Part shown: positions 7,866-30,200 of the stretch, one piece after another | How positions within the stretch are numbered: position 1 is the stretch's first letter | Layout of the letters: every line of letters begins with the position of its first letter | Notes under the pieces: model-generated | The model's database searches: none | What the model was told of the DNA's origin: nothing | The model's input: the letters and a program-made list of their open reading frames with translations, nothing else | NCBI GenBank assembly: GCA_024224155.1 | Contig: JAAENP010000196.1 | Span: 1 to 44,129 of the forward strand | Direction: 5' to 3' | Source: a bacterium | GTDB taxonomy: Bacteria; Acidobacteriota; Thermoanaerobaculia; Multivoradales; JAHEKO01 | DNA length: 44,129 bases | Position numbers and translations under genes: made by a program

Positions 7866-8051
7866 GCACCCCCCGTGAAGCCGTGTGGGCGGTATTAGAA
7901 CCTGGTGTGCACCAGGTGGGTGTCCGCTTCGAGGGCCGTTAGCGTCCCCGTCAAAGCGGGGCTGGCACAGGCCACGGGAATGAAAGACTCCCTGGAATTA
8001 AGAGTTGGTTCTACAACTACCTTACCCATCACGAAACCTCACAGGGGATGC
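7866..8051 (-). ncRNA. ssrS: 6S RNA
   Basis: Candidate 6S RNA of 186 nt, which would bind housekeeping-sigma RNA polymerase and repress transcription in slow growth. It lies directly downstream of zapA, the common location of ssrS. The ends form a perfect 13-bp terminal stem: GCATCCCCTGTGA (8039-8051) with TCACGGGGGGTGC (7866-7878), two pairs being G-U. Inside, CGTG-A-TGGG pairs with CCCA-CACG. GGTA and AGAACC pair with GGTTCT and TACC, alternating with the local hairpin ACCTGGT/ACCAGGT. The apex has CCCCG/CGGGG around CTTTGA. A long rod with an open centre is the 6S hallmark. Length fits the usual 180-190 nt. I found no clear promoter, so it may be processed from the zapA transcript. It explains the 307-base gap between rny and zapA. 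Confidence 0.8.
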
Positions 8052-26954: not shown

Positions 26955-27935
26955 ATGGCCGTCTCCATCACCGCCGCCGAGGTCTTTCCGCAGATCGAGC
27001 TCGCCGCCCAGCGACTCGCGGGATATGCGAACGTCACTCCGATCCATTCCTCTCGCACCCTCGACGAGCTTGTCCGAGGCAGCGTTTTTCTCAAGTGCGA
27101 GAACTTCCAACGGGTCGGTGCTTTCAAGTTTCGCGGCGCCTTCAACACGATGTCGCAGCTTTCGAGGGCCGAGCGCGCCGCCGGCGTTCTGACCTACTCC
27201 TCGGGTAACCATGCCCAAGGCGTGGCCCTCGCCGGCAAGCTGCTCGACATCCCGACGACCATCGTGATGCCGACCAACGCGCCGAAGGTGAAGCGCGCCG
27301 CCACCGAGAGCTACGGCGCCCGCGTGATCGAGTACGACCCGGCAAAGACCACCCGGCGTGAAGTCGCCGAGCAGCTGGCTTCCGAACGGGACTTCACGCT
27401 CATACCGCCCTTCGACCACCTACAGATCCTCGCCGGCCAGGGCACCGCCGCTCTCGAGCTCCATCGCCAGGTACCCGAGCTCGACCTGTTCCTGGCACCG
27501 GTCGGCGGCGGCGGTCTGATGTCCGGATGCGCCGTAGCCACCAAGGCCGTCGCGCCATCATGCCGGGTGGTGGGCATCGAGCCGGAGGTCGCCGATGACG
27601 CCACTCGCTCGTTCAAGACCGGCCGGCTTCACACAGTCAAGAACCCACCGACCATCGCCGACGGCACCCGCACGCAGTCCCTCGGCGAGCACAATTTTCC
27701 GCTGTTTCTCGAGTGCGTCGATGACATGGTCACGGTGTCCGAAGAGGCGATCAAGAAAGCCGTGCGGTTCTTGATCCAACGCACCAAGCTCGTGGTTGAG
27801 CCCTCCGGTGCCCTCGGCGTCGCGGCGCTGCTCTCCGGAGCCGTCGAGCCCGGCAAGAGAACCGGGGTTCTGATCAGCGGCGGCAACGTGGACCCCGAGG
27901 TTCTGGCGGAGATTCTCGGCGTCTCAGTTGAATAG
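26955..27935 (+). CDS. PLP-dependent threonine/serine dehydratase family protein
   Basis: A 326-residue fold-type II PLP enzyme, likely a threonine dehydratase or a relative acting on serine or hydroxyaspartate. The PLP lysine sits in VGAFKFRGAFNT near residue 60. YSSGNHAQGVALAGKLL and the phosphate-binding PVGGGGLMSGCA are canonical, and LISGGNVDPEVL closes the domain. It lacks the C-terminal ACT regulatory domain of biosynthetic IlvA (about 500 residues). It is therefore the short, catabolic or racemase-like type. It is probably in one transcript with the TatT-like gene. The exact amino acid substrate is open. Confidence 0.92.
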   Translation: MAVSITAAEVFPQIELAAQRLAGYANVTPIHSSRTLDELVRGSVFLKCENFQRVGAFKFRGAFNTMSQLSRAERAAGVLTYSSGNHAQGVALAGKLLDIPTTIVMPTNAPKVKRAATESYGARVIEYDPAKTTRREVAEQLASERDFTLIPPFDHLQILAGQGTAALELHRQVPELDLFLAPVGGGGLMSGCAVATKAVAPSCRVVGIEPEVADDATRSFKTGRLHTVKNPPTIADGTRTQSLGEHNFPLFLECVDDMVTVSEEAIKKAVRFLIQRTKLVVEPSGALGVAALLSGAVEPGKRTGVLISGGNVDPEVLAEILGVSVE

Positions 27936-28034
27936 CAGGGAACGGCGCCGGACGGACAGCCGGTTCCGCCCTCGACCAGCGCTCGAGCCTTTCGGCTCAT
28001 GCGATCCGGCGGACTCTTGGAGAGGTCGGCTCGG

Positions 28035-28114
28035 GCGATTTGCGCGTCTCCTCGCTACCTTCCGCGAACAGGAGCCGTGTTGCCGAGCGCCCCGCTGCGG
28101 TGCGGGCAAATCGC
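28035..28114. repeat. Imperfect palindrome in the 27936-28446 gap
   Basis: GCGATTTGC (28035-28043) and GCAAATCGC (28106-28114) are exact inverted copies 62 bp apart, in the 511-base gap between the dehydratase and the Nudix fusion gene. The rest of the left part of this gap has no convincing gene. The open frame across it is Arg-rich with no recognisable domain. Confidence 0.5.
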
Positions 28115-28286
28115 TGCTCCTCACCTCCCCCTCCACTCGCCACGCCGGAGCCTCGCACCGCCTCAAACGGCTCCGCGCCGGCAAGGCCGGAACCGGCTCT
28201 TGTGCCGGAAACATGGCTCGATTCAACGGTCCGAGACGGCGTCGGCTGCCGGAGGCTCGCCGACACAAAGCACGCAGAAAAGGCGG

Positions 28287-28440
28287 CTCGGCGGGTGATT
28301 CGCCAGTGGGCTCGCCGCAAAGCGCTCCTAGGATCGAGTCGGAGGTCTCTGACGGTTTGCGCGCAGCGGCGCGCAGGCGAGAGCCCGACCCGTTGGAGGC
28401 CTTCTAGCTCGAGCCGGCCACTGGCGAATCGCCCGTCGGG
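28287..28440. repeat. Structured intergenic repeat, copy R3
   Basis: A 23-bp uninterrupted helix closes this element. Positions 28287-28309 pair with 28418-28440, including three G-U type pairs and a 13-base exact inverted core (GATTCGCCAGTGG). The 108-base interior holds two small hairpins, 28338-28353 (loop GGTC) and 28358-28375 (TGCGCGC/GCGCGCA). The right arm word CTGGCGAATCGCCCGTCG recurs, split by 11 bases, in the element at 4438-4575. It ends 6 bp before the stop of the Nudix fusion gene, in a convergent gap. Confidence 0.7.
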
Positions 28441-28446
28441 GCGCCA

Positions 28447-30099
28447 TCAACCAGCGTCGGAGGATTCTCGGACTTTCCAGCGCTCGATCGAGCCCAGTCG
28501 TTCCAGTCGGATCAAGTGCGCCTCGAGTTGCCGCGCCGCCAGCGGATGGGCCTGCTCGGGCACATCGTCGTAGACGGTCGACAGCAGCTCCTGGGTATCT
28601 CTCAGACCCTCGTTCCAGGCCTCGAGGACCTTGCTCTCTCGCCAGAGGCGGTGCCTGAGGTATTCGGTGAGCTTCTCCTTCACCGCAATTGTTGGCGGCC
28701 CGTGCGCGGGGAACAGCGTCTTCGCGCCCAGATCGCGCATCCGCTCGAGCGAGGCCAGATAGTCGTCCATATCGCCCTCGGGTGGATCGATCACGATCGT
28801 GCCGAATCCAGCGGTCAGATCTCCGCCCAGCAACGACCCCCCACCCTCGTCATGGAACGTGACGTGCCCTTGCGCATGTCCCGGGGTGTGCGAGATCAGG
28901 ACCGGAAACGGCGGCTCGCCTTCGAGGACTACCCGCTCTCCGTCTCTGAGATCGCGATCGACCCCGATGCCGGCCGAGGACAGTCGCTTTGCCGTCTCGG
29001 CATGCGCCGCGACCGGCACACCCAGTTCCGCGCGGAGTCGTTGAACACCGCCGACGTGGTCGGGATGGTGGTGGGTCAACCAGATCGCGGCGACCTTGCG
29101 GCCGTCGGTCTTCTCCAGATCGCGAATGGCTTGGATCATTCCATCGATCATCTCCGGGAACGGCGAGCCCGGATCAATCAGTACAGCTTCGCTCCGGCCA
29201 AGAATGTAGGCGTTGGTGTAGGCCGCCGGCGGCAGCGTCGGGGTTCTCAGCGGAAACATCAGGACACCGGGCCGGAACTCGATTCTGCGGAACGGTCCGA
29301 GGTTGACCTCAAACGGCTCGCGCAGCCTGGCCAGCCCCGTCTCGGACGGACCGTCCTCGGCCATGACTTTCAGGATGTGCAGAATGGGCGGCGCCGTCAC
29401 CACCTCGCCTGTCTCCCAGCGGCGGATGGCCTCGGCGGGCCGTATCCACTCCCCCGCCACTAGCTCGCCGTCGATCACGCTCGGCTGCGGCTCCCGGTCG
29501 GTAGGCCATTCCAGCAGGAAGAACCTATTGTCGAACCGGACCGGCCCGAGCGGCGGCGTCAGCCAGCGGCCGGCATAGACCAGCTCGCCAGCGTCGAGCT
29601 GCAGATCGCGCCCCGAGGCATCGCGGAGCTCTGCCCAGACTGCCTCGAAGTTCGCCCCCCGCTCGAGGCTCGCGTGCCTCGAGGTCTCGAACAGTTTGGA
29701 GTCGACCGAATCGGCACCACGCGCCAGCAGAATCCCGGTCTCTTCGAAGAGCTCTCGAAGAACGCACGCCATGATCCCGCGGGCGTCGATGGGCTCGAGC
29801 TCGATACCGTCAAGGACGTCGGCCGGCATCGCGGCCTCATTCGATGCGCCTTTGATGCCCGCGGGCGCCCCGAGAACTAGGAGATCGGTGTCCGAGCGTG
29901 ACCGGCCTCCACCCGGAAAGGCGTGAAAGCCGCCCATGAAGGCCAACTTCTTCGAGCGCTCGACCCAGTAGACCTCGACGTCACCGTCCGAGCCGGGAAC
30001 ATGACGCCACAGCACCGCTCCCCCCGAAGCACGCACCTTGGGCCGGGGCGCTTCGAGCCCCAGGCTCAACACCTTCTCGTAGAGACTCACTTCGCTCAC
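28447..30099 (-). CDS. Nudix hydrolase-metallo-beta-lactamase fusion protein
   Basis: A two-domain protein of about 550 residues. The N-terminal Nudix-like part runs from VRASGGAVLWR through MGGFHAFPGGG to VLRELFEETGILLARG, a near-complete Nudix box (RELxEExGI). A long insert separates GGG from the helix. The C-terminal metallo-beta-lactamase domain has THHHPDHVGG, the His-x-His-x-Asp-His zinc motif, HTPGHAQGHV, GGDLTAGFG and FPAHGPP. A winged-helix-like tail as in LACTB2 nucleases follows. The GTG at 30099 (VSEVSLYEK) was preferred because it leaves about 100 bp for a promoter. An ATG at 30177 is also in frame. The pairing suggests clean-up of nucleotides or thioesters, but the substrate is unknown. 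Confidence 0.87.
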   Translation of the reverse strand: MSEVSLYEKVLSLGLEAPRPKVRASGGAVLWRHVPGSDGDVEVYWVERSKKLAFMGGFHAFPGGGRSRSDTDLLVLGAPAGIKGASNEAAMPADVLDGIELEPIDARGIMACVLRELFEETGILLARGADSVDSKLFETSRHASLERGANFEAVWAELRDASGRDLQLDAGELVYAGRWLTPPLGPVRFDNRFFLLEWPTDREPQPSVIDGELVAGEWIRPAEAIRRWETGEVVTAPPILHILKVMAEDGPSETGLARLREPFEVNLGPFRRIEFRPGVLMFPLRTPTLPPAAYTNAYILGRSEAVLIDPGSPFPEMIDGMIQAIRDLEKTDGRKVAAIWLTHHHPDHVGGVQRLRAELGVPVAAHAETAKRLSSAGIGVDRDLRDGERVVLEGEPPFPVLISHTPGHAQGHVTFHDEGGGSLLGGDLTAGFGTIVIDPPEGDMDDYLASLERMRDLGAKTLFPAHGPPTIAVKEKLTEYLRHRLWRESKVLEAWNEGLRDTQELLSTVYDDVPEQAHPLAARQLEAHLIRLERLGSIERWKVRESSDAG

Positions 30100-30200
30100 G
30101 CGCGGTGTTTTAGCACACCGAGCCTCCCGGCACTCTCCGGTTGATACGCTAACCTGCATCTCCGACAGCCGAAGCATCCCGCTCTTCGACGGCCTGAGCC

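Follow-up and report, generated by a model that had tools for sequence, protein, structure and literature searches.

The 44,129-nucleotide stretch of DNA that was analyzed (the window), from an uncultured acidobacterial lineage, carries between two convergent genes one copy of a dispersed palindromic repeat, module B, whose shared fold is modeled as a three-way junction, or Y, consisting of a long stem, P1, and two arms, P2 and P3. Copies of the repeat are scattered through the genome, are absent from the orthologous sites examined in relatives, preserve the fold by compensatory changes, and occur in several bacterial families. On balance, B is probably a non-autonomous mobile palindromic element of ~165–195 bp that is recognized by a putative enzyme as a folded single strand.

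Stem P1 is formed on the plus strand by positions 28287–28309 (CTCGGCGGGTGATTCGCCAGTGG) and 28418–28440 (CCACTGGCGAATCGCCCGTCGGG) which pair at 23 of 23 positions, three of them as G-U, and enclose a loop of 108 nt (28310–28417). A preliminary description of the sequence had noted this perfect helix with its three wobbles, judged that so long an uninterrupted helix was improbable by chance, and placed its end 6 bp from a stop codon; all three statements were borne out. When the window was scanned with loops up to ~300 nt, P1 was the sole run of at least 16 uninterrupted pairs, and the longest uninterrupted helix in 12 first-order Markov randomizations of the window was 18 pairs. A chance origin of the 23-bp helix was rejected on these values. 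Position 28440 is 6 bp from the stop codon (28447–28449) of a minus-strand ORF. Compared with shuffled sequences, folding as RNA gave z = −6.7 for the plus strand and −3.9 for the minus strand, and folding of the strand as DNA gave z = −5.6.

Alignment divides the intergenic region into two modules, both on the plus strand. The B copy (~28267–28456, ~190 bp) gave an nhmmer match and matched a covariance model with 141 bits; the match to model R1 covers 28282–28446. Inside P1, arm P2 pairs 28310–28325 (GCTCGCCGCAAAGCGC), which is almost invariant in the genus, with 28359–28374 (GCGCGCAGCGGCGCGC), and arm P3, for which covariation was seen in three alignments, pairs 28376–28384 with 28407–28415. 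Module A, a second palindromic dispersed repeat of ~250 bp, occupies ~27958–28198 with outer arms at 27958–27967 and 28189–28198 and an nhmmer match at 27951–28211. The upstream ORF (26955–27935, plus strand) looks like a threonine dehydratase-type enzyme, and the convergent downstream ORF (28447–30177, minus strand) looks like a protein with Nudix and metallo-beta-lactamase parts; each has an ortholog in both genus mates. At the Rfam gathering threshold the only family detected over the window was 6S RNA (RF00013, 67.1 bits) at 7866–8050 on the minus strand, with no family at B.

A blastn search of the window's own assembly (G000) with the helix region returned at least 41 matches including itself. 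Two core patterns of B, with up to three mismatches allowed, were located at 53 and 49 places, compared with 1 and 0 for reversed controls; merged, these places correspond to 59 distinct B loci, and the covariance model produced 61 matches. The absence of additional copies, which the preliminary description had named as an outcome that would speak against its proposal, is excluded by these ~60 copies. The module A side of the region (27920–28290) gave 41 matches including itself. Where both modules are present, A mostly precedes B, with the two on one strand. Several A or B copies are at or near contig ends (G000 contigs 304, 576, 96, 63, 168, 565, 52, and others). Therefore, the repeat probably breaks the assembly and the counts of copies are minimum values. 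Another palindrome, which is short (GGGGACAC-(9 nt)-GTGTCCCC, with some variants), is found near A and B in 15 G000 loci, for example L015 (1692), L042 (855), and L049 (1429), and in the last of these appears to be located inside module A.

Of the intergenic gaps with copies, 18 are convergent, 22 tandem, and 8 divergent; for the window as a whole, a simple gene caller used for both sets gave 8 convergent, 17 tandem, and 7 divergent gaps. Inverted pairs of B with the 5′ ends facing were observed in G010 (three pairs ~61 bp apart), G006, G001, and the window assembly. At 848–1748 of L204 (G026 contig 584), a 327-bp unit is repeated 2.8 times in tandem, with one B copy in each unit and three B copies in all. 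Among 73 copies for which both neighboring genes were called, 62 had a shorter distance to a gene at the 3′ end of B than at the 5′ end (medians of 75 and 285 bp), a count that omits most G000 copies following a module A; at loci with a single listed copy the figure was 37 of 48. Orientation to the next gene is free, with the same strand used in 46 of 110 copies for which group labels were assigned by hand from search results. The 104 flanking proteins matched 151 Pfam families. Among the 25 commonest of these no family had more than two members, and no transposase family was present.

The neighbor genes of the window copy are in the same order in both genus mates (G001 and G002), but the matched flanks are 173 and 121 bp apart versus ~555–559 bp, and neither A nor B is present at the locus in either genome. 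Orthologous regions were compared at 12 loci, namely that of the window copy and 11 others (from 16 chosen, 15 of which were queried in full) for which a single contig in one or both mates contained both flanks. In none of the resulting 17 intergenic regions was A or B detected at E ≤ 1. Therefore, we infer that the copies at the examined loci arose by insertion, loss in both mates being possible for an individual locus. The preliminary description had listed a mobile inverted repeat among its suggestions, and the dispersed family with vacant orthologous sites supports that reading. Copies of B are old, with 70–90% identity to the window copy, and no recent move was seen for this reason.

The fold of B is under selection for pairing. 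In 33 copies (32 from the assembly and one from G001) the mean duplex energy of P1 arms with their own partners was −44.6 versus −35.2 (sd 1.09) with permuted partners; when the nearest left arm served as control, the own partner equaled or surpassed it in 26 of 33 copies, and in 19 of 33 with more tightly cut arms. The corresponding values for module A were −51.9 versus −43.3 (sd 1.33; 14 copies). Within genus g1, 95.6% of cells in the B alignment were paired and 12 of 38 pairs displayed double changes (5.9 on average after shuffling, and never as many in 500 shuffles), and for module A 94.1% of cells were paired with double changes in 20 of 64 pairs (shuffled 6.5; 0 of 500 as high). These permutation tests and genus-level pair counts use MAFFT alignments. 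Six tested pairs require 17 changes between Watson-Crick states in total on a tree of 100 other columns in which most forks are weakly supported. The double changes thus are not one event. Pairing energy revealed no clear strand preference: B leaned slightly to the plus strand, with lower arm energies there in 19 of 33 copies, and module A may lean to the opposite strand.

The same pattern extends beyond the genus, where the stem sequence is largely different and the base pairing of P1, P2, and P3 is kept. In other genera 38 of 46 consensus pairs have changes on both sides (48 copies), and in a set drawn mostly from further families 18 of 22 pairs have double changes (27 matches), each in an alignment fitted to the model. 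An alignment-free comparison of 23 distant copies, in which the model match set the ends of the arms and groups were labeled by hand, gave −65.2 for own-arm duplexes versus −51.5 (sd 1.68) when partners were exchanged inside a group. Compensatory changes in relatives, which the preliminary description had proposed as a check, consequently were found in copies elsewhere rather than at the locus itself, because the latter is empty in both genus mates.

The Y is the shared fold of the family and not always the predicted fold of lowest energy. Most copies in families f2 and f7 show the Y directly in the latter, with a P1 of ~30 pairs. In other genera, at least half of P2 was present in 27 of 46 lowest-energy folds and at least half of P3 in 33 of 46; in the window's genus, where these folds usually do not include the Y, the values were 8 of 41 and 9 of 41. 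For the window copy, the Y is 10.6 kcal/mol less stable than the lowest-energy fold (−104.3 versus −114.9). Accordingly, the two hairpins that the preliminary description placed inside the helix hold for the family fold, in which P2 and P3 comprise 12 and 7 pairs, respectively, and all 19 are standard in the window copy, but not for the lowest-energy fold of that copy which pairs the interior differently. The inner helix of this alternative fold (columns 66–98 with 124–160) is unsupported, unlike P2 and P3, as its own pairing is hardly better than swapped pairing (−22.6 versus −21.8, sd 0.52). Apical helix 7 of model R1, with 62.6% of cells paired, also was unsupported.

Searched with the B consensus by blastn, 16 of 147 genomes matched at E ≤ 0.001, all weakly except G001, G002, and the window's own genome, so that good matches were confined to the genus. 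With covariance model R1, built from 31 copies, matches to B were obtained in 11 of the 18 genomes in the bacterial family, which represent 6 of its 9 genera; outside the window assembly there were 1–15 per genome, nearly all full-length. Model R2, built from 46 copies, identified B in 24 of 148 genomes of the class at E ≤ 1e-4 and gave no match in 124. Beyond the family, R2 matches were in f2 (12 in G026 and 6 in G018), f7 (11 in G023), nine f3 genomes (1–2 each), and one f8 genome (1), these counts being of the best matches scored per genome, 22 at most. By genome, B was found in G006–G010, G012, G014, G017, G018, G023, and G026, and was not found in G003–G005, G011, G013, G015, and G016. 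Copies from other genera have only B in common, over a stretch from ~−40 to +200, and are preceded by partial companions. Genus g6 (L127–L138 and L150–L158) has short degenerate tandem words such as CCTCACTGCCTCAATGCC within up to ~45 bp upstream of B in several loci, and CGGTGCCAGAGG is shared just before the stem. Module A gave no match at E ≤ 1 in 40 other-genus loci; it is found only in the window's genus, often just upstream of B, and its exact core pattern was not found in viral contigs. The exact core pattern of B occurs in 22 stretches of GTDB contigs, only three of which, from the two genus mates, match the B profile well, and the best of the others has E 6.7e-4 over 32 model positions. 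Searches of plasmids and phages produced no match to B, six B loci gave only two weak matches to Rfam at E ≤ 2, both to eukaryotic families, and no description of the B family was seen among the papers listed in literature searches.

In the mechanism that we favor, a single strand of B would fold into the Y with its long variable stem and conserved arms, and a putative trans-acting enzyme would recognize the folded strand, either as single-stranded DNA or as RNA that is copied back, and would cut and paste, or copy, the element into intergenic gaps. Selection for recognition would keep the pairing while the stem sequence drifts, and the mRNAs of adjoining genes would carry the copies in the form of long double-stranded stems. 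That mobility caused the dispersal, that the element is recognized when folded, and that there is such an enzyme are parts of the proposal. Action of an enzyme on the folded strand is suggested because B was not found near the 30 Y1-transposase loci examined (see below), the flanks are diverse, matches in Rfam, plasmids, and phages are lacking, and no target-site duplication was evident: in 32 copies the longest word shared by the two flanks was 4.9 for own flanks versus 5.0 for swapped flanks, although this test is weakened by the age of the copies. No enzyme that moves B was found, which counts against mobility, as do the results on Y1 loci and target-site duplications and the age of the copies. 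A ~960-bp gap between A and B in L086 (G002), considered as a candidate autonomous element, contains small ORFs and no recognizable transposase. More tentatively, the copies in several families may constitute an undescribed class of dispersed elements defined by the three-way-junction fold and not by sequence, whose folded single strand, DNA or RNA, would be read by a dedicated machine, neither a RAYT nor a classical transposase, that propagates the copies and keeps them in step in each lineage.

Neighboring genes supply both a further argument against mobility and part of the case for its main rival, in which B is a dispersed structured RNA that is transcribed and kept for a function, whether as a stability element, an RNase III site, an sRNA, or a protein-binding RNA. 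A small RNA and an RNase III substrate had also been suggested in the preliminary description. Seven pairs of B loci from different genera have a homologous neighbor gene in common. B is upstream in the sense orientation at both loci in four pairs and downstream in antisense at both loci in one; in another it is upstream with opposite orientations, and in the last it differs in side. The four sense-upstream pairs, from different genera or families, precede aldolase-like (L030 and L145), ImuA-like (L040 and L144), FAD-oxidoreductase-like (L066 and L137), and sulfatase-like (L139 and L217) genes or regions. Therefore, some B copies may be old and kept, or some sites may be preferred, and retained functional copies could be meant. 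An RNA function also is favored by the conserved arms P2 and P3, whose pairs have changed in step in different families, and by the proximity of the 3′ end of B to genes. Nevertheless, we regard this alternative as possible but rather unlikely: fewer than half of the copies are followed in their own direction by a gene on the same strand, pairing energy shows no clear strand preference, and B is absent at all 17 orthologous regions. Furthermore, positions 27900–28500 include no promoter-like site when scored against the sigma-70 consensus only, and no intrinsic terminator (a stem followed by a T run).

Mobilization as hairpin DNA by a REP-associated Y1 transposase (RAYT) of the lineage, which would make B a REPIN, is improbable. 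Like REPINs and REP dimers as described (PMC3116915; PMC3733652), B is a multi-copy extragenic inverted repeat that folds as a hairpin, with compensatory changes and inverted pairs, and 14 of the family's 18 genomes have Y1_Tnp genes. However, none of 30 Y1 loci (84.7 kb), examined from 50 Y1 matches listed, contained B at E ≤ 0.1, with one weak match (E 0.31) at E ≤ 1, and among these loci no RAYT flanked by B copies was found. Nor do the two co-occur: in this set of incomplete genomes, no Y1 gene was found in G006 and G010, which are rich in B, and Y1 genes were found in G003, G005, G011, and G013, which gave no B. A RAYT as mobilizer hence is supported neither by adjacency nor by co-occurrence, and B was not classified as a REPIN because of the result on adjacency. 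The B unit also is branched and approximately five times the length of a REP, and P1 alone exceeds a REP stem. The Y1-type (RAYT-like) gene in L098 (G000 contig 533, ORF 1084–2148) has on its flanks a short palindrome of its own (GGGGACAGG / CCTGTCCCC) that is different from B.

The least probable reading, and indeed a very doubtful one, is that of a classical MITE, in which a DDE transposase would recognize the terminal inverted repeats of B and move it in double-stranded form. B has such repeats, no coding capacity, a length under ~200 bp, and ~60 copies, but was not assigned to this class because no target-site duplication was found among its old copies. In addition, no transposase is among the 25 commonest of the 151 flanking families, and the arms of different copies and genera vary in sequence but still pair, as would be expected if a fold and not a fixed end sequence were recognized.

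Judged by its proposed workings, B would be closest to REPINs (PMC3116915) and to the YPAL palindrome (PMC2229807). It shares lineage persistence with the former as described in that source, but is longer, with conserved P2 and P3 arms, and no short REP unit was shown. For REPINs, circular or excised molecules that point to a mobile intermediate have been reported (PMC3116915). Likened by its description in PMC2229807, the 168-bp Yersinia palindrome YPAL (RU-2) resembles B in size, palindromic structure, a composition that is not A+T-rich, ends without TA, intergenic location, the existence of both filled and empty sites, and the lack of a known mobilizer, whereas the target duplications of 3–26 bp described for YPAL were not seen with B. 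The NEMIS/Correia and RUP MITEs described in the same source also are non-coding, shorter than 200 bp, and have inverted termini, and their RNA may be cut by RNase III; B differs in lacking TA ends and target duplications and in conserving a fold rather than an end sequence. The GTAG/CGTC REP families, according to PMC3733652, likewise are palindromic, extragenic, and arranged as head-head dimers, some inserted in longer palindromes, but these REPs are 20–40 bp with stems of 5–13 bp, whereas P1 of B alone is at least 23 bp. The families of stem-loop sequences from 40 genomes, compared by description only, similarly are repeated in intergenic regions with a shared fold and range from 31 to >2,000 bp; a word search of that survey (PMC2267715) found neither "Acidobacter" nor "Solibacter".

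Module B is viewed as a repeat of the REPIN-, MITE-, and YPAL-like kind, set apart by its branched fold and by its spread over several families with a replaced stem sequence. Few bacterial palindromic repeats have a known mobilizer, and these essentially are REPINs with RAYTs. B has a fold common to several families, a stem replaced by paired changes, and copy numbers that reach the tens in a genome, and does not track the sole transposase type known for such hairpins. Thus, it offers a clean comparative system for the upkeep of repeats, whether by mobility, RNA function, or gene conversion, and its covariance models could help to annotate the intergenic regions of these uncultured genomes and the points at which their assemblies break.
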